From positions 5,208,001 through 5,272,000 of the forward strand of contig OZ004591.1 of the NCBI GenBank assembly GCA_963924555.1: a stretch of DNA of 64,000 nucleotides, written 5' to 3'. Numbering within the stretch: position 1 is the stretch's first letter; the number at the start of each line of letters is the position of its first letter. Origin of the DNA: Crambe crambe. Taxonomy: Eukaryota; Porifera; Demospongiae; Poecilosclerida; Crambeidae. A model generated the notes under the pieces. That model was not told the origin of the DNA, made no database searches, and was given only the letters and a program-made list of their open reading frames with translations. Positions 6,099 to 49,200 of this stretch are shown here, in pieces. Made by a program: the position numbers and the translations under genes.

Positions 6099-9000
6099 AT
6101 GATATTGTGCAGGGAGCAAAAAATCGAGAAAGAGGATGAGATCAGCTTATCGGAGGCAGCCATCGATGCTGAGTGGAAGAGAATCCAAAAGAAGACCTTC
6201 ACACGATGGTGCAATGAGCATCTGAAGAAACAAGGCCCAGAGTTCCTGATCACTGAGTTGGGAGAGGACTTCTCTGATGGCATCCGTTTGATCAATCTAC
6301 TGGAAATCCTCTCGCAGAAGAAAGTGGGGAGGTACAGCAAGAAGCCCAGAGTGCATGCTCAGAAGATGGAGAATATAGAACTGGCACTCAACTTTTTGAC
6401 TAAGAAGGAGGGAATATACCTGGTTAATATAGGTGAGACTCCAAGTCAATCAATGTTTGGCCCCAAAGATAGATACGGTTTACCTTGGAGCATTTCATAG
6501 TGTTCTGATCTCTGCTCTCTAGCATTGTATTCCCACCCTCCCCCCTTAGAAATTGCAGGGTTTGCTTATGTGTTGAGCATCTCTTGCCATAGTCATTGAC
6601 ACTGTATCAGGTTATTGTGATCACAGAGTAATGTTACACTGTGATACTAGCTATCAATTAGCCAGCGGCCATTTGAGCTGCAACATGAGATGCAGTAAAA
6701 TGTTTCAGTACCTGAAGTAATTCTGGAAATGACATAGTGTTTGCTAAGTAATATAATTCTTTATGACAATATGAGACTGTGTGCATGCAATTGTGGACAG
6801 TCAGAGTCTAGTACACAGTAGACTGTGTCTGCAACATGGAGTTAAAATGTTTATGGTTACTGCTCAGTTGTTTTCCAAATGATGCATTCAGTATGACATT
6901 TTGGGTGGTCTTTGTGCACCAAAAAAAAAATAGATTCTTCATCAGCAGAAAGATACTCATTATGATAAAACATTAGAGATTATATACGTAGTAGCATATA
7001 GGATACTGAACCACGAGGGCTTGCCAAGAGCTAATCAAACGAGTGTTGTCAAAAAATTAGCTCCTATGTCCACCACAGCATGTACTGTGGTCACTCTTGT
7101 AGTTGATTATTTTGCTTTGACCATATTTGGTAAGATGGTCTTGGCCCACAAGTACACATTCCAGTGTGGTGAAATGTTCCAAGCAGTGATAGCTAAAGGG
7201 TAGTGGTAGGAACTATTGGCTTCCTGCTGATTCTATGCAAGGCATGATAAACAGGAAACAGCTACCCTGAGTGAGACAATGGTCTGGCCATAAAAGAGGC
7301 ATGAAAAAGAATTGTCAGGGGAGAGCATGTTGAGTCAAACTACAATTTTAGAGTGGTACTTTCATGACTAAAATGGTTTGTTGTTTTTGTTTTGTTTTGT
7401 TTTATTTTATTTGTTTGTTTATTATTTTTGGTTACAGGCAGTGGAGACATCATTAGTGGTAACGTGAAGTTGATTCTGGGTCTGATCTGGACTCTGATCC
7501 TGCACTATCAGATCAGCATCGGATTCGGGATCAAGCAAGATGATAAGGACGGGAAGTCAGGCAGGACCGGCAAACAGGCCCTCTTGGAGTGGCTTCAGGT
7601 TAGTTAGCATGCAGAGTGATTATCCCAACCTCCCTAGAGAGTAGTAGCTATCTCCCTATTATTAAGGCCACATGCACCTGGCGCATGGAGGGTCACAGTA
7701 AAGCAGTTACTATAAAGTAGAGTGGTTGGTCAAGCATCATTAATTTACCATCCTCTGTGTAAGGCGATAAATCTAATTGACTACAGGAGAGAGAGAGAGA
7801 GAGAGAGAGAGAGAGAGAGAGAGAGAGAGAGACGAGGAGGAAGACAAATAATGGTGACCTATTAGCACTTCATGTCAGTACCCCCAGTTTTAGTTATAAC
7901 CCATTACCACATGCATAGCACTGTGGCAAGTGTTATCGACACTGACTTCCATACTGTGTTCAGCACGACCCATTGTCACAGCACACAAACAGTACAGGTG
8001 CTATAAACACACAGGTGACTTAGGCCATTTAGCATGACCCATTATCATACAGCACTTTCTCGTGAAAGCATTATAAGCACAGGTGGTCTCTTTGTATGTA
8101 GCTACACCCACACAGTATGCTATACAGACTCATTGTCACTTTAATGTTTTGCTCATGAATAATTCATAAGGTTAATAAGGTGAGTAGTAACACCGACTAT
8201 GAGATGCTATAGTTGAAAACTACAGTTTCATATCACTTCCTAAACTGTAGTTTTCAACTATAGCATCTCATAGTTCACTGTTGGTATTACTACTATTTGA
8301 CTCATGAGCAAACATTACATGGTAACCTTAAGTCCTGTGAGTGTGTTTGTGATGATATTATCAGGTTGCATGGTTATTGGACACCTGCAGTACCTTCCTA
8401 CCGTTGCCATGTCACCATCAATAGGTTAGCAGTAGTTCATGAAATTTAGATGAGTTTCAGGTGTCAAATTACCACATGGTATAGCACATGGCCACGATAT
8501 TATACATACGCCAATAACACATGATTGTGTAAATGACGTGATTCAGGGGAAGATAATCATCTTTGCTCTTGTGATGATTGAAACTTGTAGCATCTAGTAG
8601 AGTTTTCTGTCCAGTATCAAATACAAATTTCCAGTCAGACTACGCACGCATACACACACGCGTCAACATTTAAGTATTGATCATGAATGGTCTAATAACT
8701 TATAGCATCAAAGAAAATGAAAGCTTACTTGTGCAGGCTTTGTGTTCTAGAGCACAACCTAAGCCCTTTTCAGACTTGAAATGGCCTATCTGTTGTTACT
8801 TCATGCTCTGGCAATGTGTGGTGTATTTGCTGGTGCATGCATGCAGTGGATAACATGGAACTCTAACTCTCCGTGTAGTGGGACATTTCGGTCTTAGTAA
8901 CAGTCCATTAGTCCCCTCGTGTGGGGATTGTTATGGCAGACCTGTACAGCACACATGCACGATTGGTTCCATGATTGATTGAGGAGGGCTGAATTCCACG

Positions 9001-46290: not shown

Positions 46291-49200
46291 ATGATGTTTA
46301 CGATGAAGGTGACAATCCGTCTTCGCTGGAACTTGAAGGACTAGAGAAAGTGGCAGGAGGACGCTACGCCCTGTCCCTTCCCATGCCCTCTGTATTCTTC
46401 AAGTACATCATAGGTACAAAGGGCAACACTCGGACCTCCATAGAGAAAGACACCAAGTGTTTACTTAGAATTCCACGCAAAGGTGTGGAAGGAAATATAG
46501 GTTGGTTTACTCTGCATTTAAATAATATATGAAAAAGCAATGTTGTTCCCCATGCATGCATGCATGTTACAACGATAAAAACAAAGTGGATAGTAATTTT
46601 CTTGCTGTTTCCACTCCAACAGTAGTGTAATAAAAACAATAATGGCCAACTCCTCAGCCCCCATATTTATTTATTTATTTATTTATTTATTTGTTTATTT
46701 ATTTATTTATTTGTTTATTTATTTGTTTGTTTATTATTTATTTATTTATTTTAGTAATCGAAGGAGAGAATGCAGCTGCAATCGCCTATGCCAAGAGACG
46801 AGTGGAGATGGTGGCATGGTCCAATCGGTTCAGGGAAGAGCCAACCCACTTCATCTCCATCCCTCTCAACTGTCCACATATCATGGAGCATGTAGACACT
46901 TTCAAAGATGAAGTTTTGAAGTCGTTTGGCACAGTAAGTACACAAAAAATATATCAAAAAGGAGTTCATACTGGAGGAATGCATAGCACTGTATGGGGCA
47001 AGCATGACATGTACATGTTTCCTGGCTGACATTTCTGCCTCACACTTCTGTCGATACCTGGCAGACATTCGATGTAGTCTGGCTTCTGTAGCTTCTGGAA
47101 CCCTTCTCTCTTGGTCCTTAAGTCTCCTTTCCAAAAGCTGTTCTCAGCATGTAGAGCTTGATCCCATTAGCGTCATCTTCTCAGACGAAACACATGTTCC
47201 TCCTGTGTTCGTTATCTAGACAACGCACATGCACAAGCTTATTGTGTTACTATGTCGATAGCATGCTATTTCCAGAAGGCACAAATATCATTTCCTTAAG
47301 GATTTAAGTGTAGAAACCCAACAACTAGTCCCACATCCCTATTAAAAAGCTGCCCTTCTGAAGTTAAATTAATGTGAAGTGCTTCTTTTAAAAGCAGCTC
47401 CTTTCTACTCCTACAAGTGAAGCTTCCTTCCATAAGATAGGATGATGATTGCTCCAAGCATGATCAGCAACTGCAGATTTCTCCTGTTCTCCATCGTATG
47501 CAAGCTTCCTTATGCTCCTTCAGTCTGATTTCCAGCCTTGCTATCGACATGGTAACATAATAGGCTTATGCATTGTCTAGATAATGAGCGTAGCTCTATA
47601 CAGTAAGATTGTTTCTGTGTGCATTTTTTGTATCACCTGATGAAGGCTAGAGTATTCTGGTCGGTGGTTTGTATTATAAAGCTTTATTGAATTTTATCAT
47701 GAGAAATAAGAAGAGTTTAAAGTATTTGGTTGATAATATATAATTTTTTTTCGAGGTGTTAAAATTTAAAATCATTTACAACACTATGTGTAAATTATTG
47801 ATAAGTTGTAGAATTTAAAAAATTGGTTATAGGTTGTTAGTATGATGAGGGCATGGCTTTATTTGACAGTCATTATTCATGTGTGGCAGGAACCCAATGT
47901 GGAACCAGATGTATTCATAGACTCTGCTCAATTTCACTTAACATTGGGTGTGGCCAGGATATTTTCACAAGAGGAAGAGGTACGTACCTACATAGGTAAA
48001 ACGCTTATTGTGACTCCATTTTTTTGGATTATGTGCTTTTTGTATTGTAGGATAAGGCAATAAAAGTGCTGCACAAGTGTGTTGAAAATGCCAAGTAAGT
48101 ATGGAAATTCAGATCAGGTAATTATTGTATCTGCAGAGATAATCATCACATGCTTATCAGTTGTACATTCTTTAATTTACACCCCCACCCACTTCTCTCT
48201 CTCTCTCTCTCTCTCTCTCTCTCTCTCTCTCTCTCTCTCTCTCTCTCTCTCTCTCTCTCTCTCTCTCTCTCTCTCCCTCCCTCCCTCCCTCCCTCCCTCC
48301 CTCCCCCCCCCCCCCCCCCCCCTCTCTCTCTCTCTCTCTCTCTCTCTCTCTCTCTCTCTCTCTCTCTCTCTCTCTCTCTCTCTCTCTCTCTTTCTCTCCC
48401 TTCTATACTGCCCTCGATGTTATAGAGAGAAGTTGGAGTCTCAGCCAGTGATGATTTCCTTGCAAGGTTTGGAAACAATGAACGACGACATCTCAGCAGC
48501 TAAAATCGTTTATGTCAAAGTCAAAGCCTGTACCAGGTGTGATAACACTGGTTAATTGATTCAGTTTTGGTGATTAGTGGGCATGTTACTAGAACAGTTA
48601 CAGTCCAATTATGTAGTATTGGAACACAGAAATCTTTCTCAGAAGTTGATTTCACTGTATTGCATTGGATGATTGTGTGCTGTTAGTCAACTATATGCAT
48701 ACTGGCCACACAAAGCAACTGTCCTTTTTGAAATCCATTCACTGTGACTTTGTCTACCTACTTCACAATACGATCAATAGTGACACACACATTGCTTGCA
48801 CACACACACCACACATGAAGATGGAGATCATATTATCAGTATAACTGGAGCAGAACACAATCTATCCAAACCCCACTACCCCATCCAGTAACAATTTTTT
48901 TATAATACGTATGTAACTACACAGACTGCAAAAATTTGTGGATGAAATTAATACTTCATTCATCAAAGCAGCCCCAGAGTTGATGCGGAAGGAGTTTGAA
49001 CGTGATGGGGTGAAGCTACATGCTACACTTATGAACTGCAAGCTCTTAGAGATGGAGTCTGGAAGAGCCCGTCTGAAAAATCCCAGAAGTAGAAGCATGA
49101 AACGGAAAACAATTGATGCTACCAAGATATTAAAGGTTCTCCAATTAATGAGTTTCTGATCCCTTAGGCTTACATAGTGCTAAGTCATACTACTAGTTGG

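Follow-up and report, generated by a model that had tools for sequence, protein, structure and literature searches.

Nine repeat tracts and their genes

The 64,000-nucleotide (nt) stretch C14:5208001-5272000 of the sponge Crambe crambe (genome of 143.1 Mb in 119 contigs), here called the window, carries animal genes for filamin, ECT2 and ASCC1, an EMP70-family gene and a mosaic gene with NIDO, SRCR and LDLa domains. A first-pass annotation had proposed that at least nine 3' splice sites (acceptors) in these genes are preceded by simple repeats, that these serve as pyrimidine- or T-rich tracts and are repeatedly placed at acceptors, and that changes in their length could tune splicing genome-wide. 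The present text concerns these nine tracts and the relation between simple repeats and acceptors in this genome.

All nine tracts were present where they had been proposed (Table 1), and from the end of the repeat to the first base beyond a plausible AG there are 2-17 nt in eight cases and 27 nt in the ninth. The proposal of simple repeats before at least nine acceptors hence stood in substance, but with two reservations: the ect2 site is ambiguous, and the sites at 18707 and 18877 arose by duplication of a single mini-exon unit, so that at most eight of the nine cases are independent.

Table 1. Repeat tracts before acceptors in the window (positions count from the first letter of the window)
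Acceptor	Coordinates	Strand	Tract	Exon start
Filamin	7377..7437	+	imperfect (TTTTG/TTTG)n 7377-7420, then 17 nt to TTACAG	7438
Mosaic gene	17560..17615	-	(GTT)n 17564-17615, end TTTTAG	17559 or 17550 (second AG)
Mosaic gene, NIDO exon	18235..18282	-	C19 then (CT)13 directly at CAG	18234
Mosaic gene, mini-exon	18707..18732	-	C21 (18712-18732) + TTTAG	18706 or 18697
Mosaic gene, duplicated mini-exon	18877..18900	-	C14 (18887-18900) + AACTGTTTAG	18876 or 18867
Mosaic gene, LDLa module	20277..20331	-	imperfect (TTTG)n 20289-20331, then 12 nt to CAG	20276
ect2 (probable acceptor)	33131..33160	-	C28 (33133-33160) directly at AG	33130, 2 nt off
ASCC1	46664..46754	+	(TTTA)n ending TTTTAG	46755, 3 nt after repeat
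ASCC1	48194..48425	+	~200-nt (CT)n/(CCCT)n/C-run to 48398, then 27 nt to GTTATAG	48426

Judged as 3' splice sites with a polypyrimidine tract, all nine introns plausibly end in AG followed by a coding exon, ambiguously so in ect2. An AG-free, pyrimidine-rich stretch occupies the last tens of nucleotides, although the GTT, TTTG, TTTA and TTTTG tracts are T-rich and not pure pyrimidine. C-rich tracts lie 5' of the exon at 18235-18282, 18707-18732 and 18877-18900, and also at 33131-33160 if that site is an acceptor.

A two-strand gene finder predicted the exons; for acceptors it weighs positions -3 and +1 only and scores microsatellites as neutral, and it is thus blind to the tract (a single-strand finder was dropped, as it ran separate genes into one chain). 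Exon starts were predicted exactly at 7438, 18234, 46755 and 48426; in three further cases they fell on the second AG, 9 nt beyond the first, at 17550, 18697 and 18867. Two of the nine sites were missed, the TTTG tract being read through within a first exon and the ect2 C28 run being read as polyproline. Three mosaic-gene acceptors present two AGs 9 nt apart (17559/17550, 18706/18697 and 18876/18867), and a switch between them would add or drop three residues.

Homology fixed four of the acceptors to within three residues, namely those of filamin, of the NIDO exon and both ASCC1 sites. Manually joined filamin exons match filamin-A without a gap at the 7438 junction (E 2e-62), the ASCC1 match to 8tuk (E 9e-31) runs across both junctions, next to which it has gaps of 2-3 residues, and the NIDO match (E 2e-34) begins no more than three residues from the 18234 junction. 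Besides, the exon after the GTT tract contains an SRCR match and the one after the TTTG tract an LDLa match. The match to human ECT2 (4n40) begins 22 residues downstream of the C-run; the ect2 exon is therefore well supported, its exact acceptor not, and the C28 run, while probably an acceptor tract, may alternatively be an in-frame polyproline stretch. On the minus strand at 18660-18960, the mini-exons are tandem-duplicated along with their C-run introns, and 35-bp repeats lie nearby at 19017-19204.

Repeat position, repeat type and the exons that follow

The positional test covered the window and an independent sample of 16 stretches of 10 kb (L009-L024; 160 kb, ~0.1% of the genome). A microsatellite was taken as a repeat with a Tandem Repeats Finder (TRF) score of at least 30 and a period of at most 6, and 50 nt served as the main distance cut-off. 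Genes scoring below 8 were removed, which left 104 window and 174 sample introns, and then sites with an exon score below 3. In the window, 14 of 83 acceptors and 7 of 77 donors had a repeat within 50 nt; the corresponding sample values were 6 of 125 and 4 of 112. For circular shifts, introns shorter than 60 nt were removed as well, and 193 of the 208 acceptors passed this length filter.

The sample acceptors showed no excess of repeats over shifted positions (6/115 vs 7.7 expected, P 0.85, the 160 kb giving limited power), and the pooled acceptors no significant one (20/193 vs 17.7 expected, P 0.25). A robustness grid of four repeat definitions and three distances (30, 50 and 100 nt) gave twelve tests per set, none of which was significant for window acceptors (P 0.055-0.90) and one of which was for sample acceptors (TRF24 at 100 nt: 32 observed vs 26.3 expected, P 0.028). 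Donors had 7/70 vs 9.9 expected in the window, 4/100 vs 5.4 in the sample and 11/170 vs 15.3 pooled; since 97% of the shift trials gave as many or more repeats than observed at the pooled donors, donor sides tend to be repeat-poor.

Microsatellites are thus not clearly placed at acceptors above chance, and the claim of repeated placement was not borne out in the independent sample, where the enrichment over random intron positions that the annotation itself had named as the deciding criterion was absent. The impression of placement arose because the window is repeat-dense (repeats cover 4.5% of intron bases, vs 1.9% in the 16 stretches), because examples were picked, and because one duplicated unit was counted twice. 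The 33 intronic repeats of the window fall into 14 near acceptors, 6 near donors and 13 in the interior.

The type of repeat carries more weight than its position. Window and sample together held 66 intronic repeats, of which 25 of mixed type were excluded; C/T- or T-rich repeats stood to G/A- or A-rich ones as 12:3 within 50 nt of acceptors and as 12:14 elsewhere in introns (Fisher P 0.035). The sample alone did not yield a significant contrast (2:1 near acceptors vs 6:11 elsewhere, P 0.34). To take the repeats for pyrimidine- or T-rich tracts is natural and agrees with their pooled orientation.

A type-specific excess was also present in whole-genome counts, in which both strands were searched for a tract followed by NNNCAGR and for the same pattern read backwards. 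Counts were corrected for word frequency, since CAGR outnumbers RGAC by a factor of 1.41 (224 kb examined) and uncorrected backward-pattern controls inflate the effect. With copies of a dispersed repeat and a cluster on contig C9 (both described below) included in the fold figures, the corrected excess was 2.5-fold for (CT)8 (143 vs 41 backwards), 2.2-fold for C16 (332 vs 106) and 1.7-fold for T16 (81 vs 33), as compared with 1.0-fold, i.e. none, for (GA)8 (64 vs 44) and 1.4-fold for G16 (167 vs 83, P 0.004). CT differed from GA tracts with P 0.001, C from G tracts with P 0.013, and pooled C/T from G/A tracts with P 0.0002. When CTGR replaced CAGR, pattern and backward counts were 53:64 for (CT)8 and 133:127 for C16, and CAGR exceeded CTGR 2.8-fold after correction for (CT)8 (143:53) and 2.6-fold for C16 (332:133). 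The shorter pattern C16NNNAG (1302 vs 722 backwards) was rejected as a measure of enrichment, as G16NNNAG is at least as skewed (2445 vs 1193) and AG before C-runs is nearly as frequent (1145); the longer CAGR words with correction were used instead. The T16NNNCAGR sites are split unevenly between the contig strands, 27 forward and 54 reverse.

Exon scores downstream of such sites were read in a sample of 20, formed from every fifth of the first 100 of the 143 (CT)8NNNCAGR sites, with the window's own site swapped for the next. A score above 5 followed 9 of the 20 sites, or 8 of 17 once copies of the dispersed repeat and a duplicated pair had been collapsed. The same threshold was exceeded at 8.9% of 2067 CAGR sites in sequence not predicted as coding, at 24% of 3243 non-acceptor CAGR sites and at 96% of 113 predicted acceptors, the latter having been chosen by such scores. 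The 20 sites outscored the non-coding CAGR sites (P 3e-5), and by this sequence-based measure a good part of the (CT)n-CAG sites, though not all, look like acceptors.

Weighing the explanations

We consider the nine sites to be 3' splice sites of the ordinary kind in which a simple repeat has come to serve as the polypyrimidine tract, pyrimidine repeats being tolerated or retained there, and assign this reading a probability of roughly 0.78; it overlaps with the alternatives discussed below, and the likelihoods given to them need not sum to one. The genome holds many microsatellites, this window above all, and those born in introns next to an acceptor may be tolerated or drift into use if their sense strand is C/T- or T-rich, because such repeats are without AG and can bind the polypyrimidine-tract machinery. 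Purine repeats would serve as a tract little or not at all, GA repeats being unsuitable because they are full of AG. Ordinary acceptors have a weak tract (~60% C/T at -19 to -6 among 173 repeat-free predicted acceptors, a figure diluted by false predictions), compared with which a long, AG-free C, CT or T-rich repeat would be an ample one, and pyrimidine runs already present at acceptors may seed new repeats by slippage. By analogy with mammalian work (PMC4797308), U2AF might read the T-rich tracts and PCBP-like proteins the C-runs. What would result across the genome is a modest surplus of CT, C and T repeats in contact with CAG, while microsatellites as a class would not be concentrated at acceptors.

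Several observations weigh against this reading. The window acceptors on their own had repeats at 14/78 sites vs 10.0 expected under circular shift (P 0.037; 50 nt, TRF 30), a weak excess that gave P 0.055 on retesting and was weaker at other cut-offs. The intron test relies on predicted and not transcribed junctions, and as the finder missed two of nine repeat-tract acceptors, it may undercount such sites and hide enrichment. The sampled (CT)n-CAG sites scored below predicted acceptors (P 1e-4). Only one of eight C16NNNAG loci (L004; L006 and L007 overlap) had an exon score above 5, so that acceptors at C-runs have weaker support than those at CT repeats, and since G16 is also in excess (1.4-fold), the C16 excess must in part have a source other than splicing. 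T16 tracts did not differ significantly from purine tracts (P 0.21). Finally, among the first 100 of the 143 (CT)8NNNCAGR sites, 9 are copies of the dispersed repeat and 13 cluster in a 0.5-Mb part of C9; the two of these that were read proved 94% identical to each other.

These last figures bear on the possibility that microsatellite-bordered mobile elements account for much of the tract-CAG adjacency and in some cases supply the acceptor. One possible element of this sort is a dispersed repeat, at least 250 bp long, that stands right at CAG after (CT)n in three of the 20 sampled sites (L026, L027 and L031, on C1, C1 and C6); the genome contains 14 near-full copies at 87-100% identity along with many partial ones. 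Part of the CT, C and T excess is this dispersed repeat and, probably, duplicated genes. As a general account it is nonetheless improbable, because the other 17 of 20 sampled sites are unrelated to the dispersed repeat by blastn, and 79 of the first 100 sites remain when its 9 copies are set aside and the 13 C9 sites are counted once. Somewhat easier to entertain, yet still doubtful, is pure sampling, i.e. a repeat-dense window in which exon-adjacent repeats were picked and nothing goes beyond chance. It is favoured by an intron repeat cover twice that of the sample, by the double counting of 18707/18877, and by the fact that 14 of the 33 intronic window repeats lie near acceptors, with 10.0 acceptor hits expected by chance; it leaves the type-specific genome-wide counts and the exon scores after (CT)n-CAG unexplained.

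At the other extreme, microsatellites could be selectively placed at acceptors genome-wide as putative length-tunable splicing rheostats. The overrepresentation of CT, C and T tracts before CAGR and the weak window excess would suit this idea, as would the existence of the mechanism in mammals (PMC9957390 and PMC7349775), but with a single significant result (TRF24, 100 nt) among the twelve tests on sample acceptors, we regard it as very unlikely. The least credible proposition we considered is a more specific one, namely that slippage-prone C or CT repeats at AG, read by poly(C)-binding proteins, define several hundred acceptors, with exon inclusion varying between individuals with repeat length.

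Other repeats in the window comprise a 92-bp unit in eight perfect tandem copies at 38528-39264 (100% matches; the array either expanded very recently or is owed to the assembly), a perfect 33 bp x 6.1 tandem repeat at 15214-15414 and a perfect 106 bp x 2 tandem repeat at 9608-9823, where the finder placed two filamin exons. Elsewhere in the genome, filamin-repeat matches occur in open frames of 9,238 and 9,513 amino acids and in many clustered frames of ~700 amino acids (C14:3.68-3.74 Mb; C3, C5, C10 and C17).

Known repeat-tract acceptors and significance

The nine cases are new instances of an already known repeat-tract splice signal. In human CFTR, the (TG)mTn repeat stands directly before an acceptor. 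This intronic compound repeat has a clinically significant length (PMC11313279), which is associated with skipping of exon 9 (PMC1277850); the sponge tracts resemble it as intronic simple repeats, partly compound, but are of other repeat types, and the CFTR effect was measured in people. Intronic T-runs precede acceptors in ATM, MRE11 and HSP110, where their shortening accompanies skipping of the next exon (PMC9957390). As in the window, a simple run forms the tract right before AG, but those are human T-runs with measured length change and skipping, whereas here C, CT, TTTA, TTTG and GTT repeats are seen in one assembly.

For the C-runs, the closest counterpart described is the alphaCP/PCBP-dependent C-rich, not U-rich, tract before mammalian cassette exons (PMC4797308). 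A C-rich tract before an exon is likewise found in the mosaic gene and probably in ect2, with the difference that the sponge runs are C14-C28 homopolymers. In canine merle PMEL, a slippage-variable poly(T) before the acceptor sets splice choice (PMC7349775); that poly(T) was brought by insertion of a short interspersed nuclear element, whereas the nine tracts reported here are simple repeats. Our literature search, which covered sponge introns, microsatellites and polypyrimidine tracts as well as simple repeats at exon-intron boundaries, returned only off-topic work, such as a study of prokaryotic genes in a sponge.

In summary, a 2-3 fold, type-specific genome-wide excess of CT and C repeats at CAG has been quantified, whereas microsatellites in general showed no preference for acceptors in the sample examined. 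Such sites would be natural test cases for the replacement of a U-rich tract by C-rich homopolymers and, outside vertebrates, for splicing variation that originates in repeat length.

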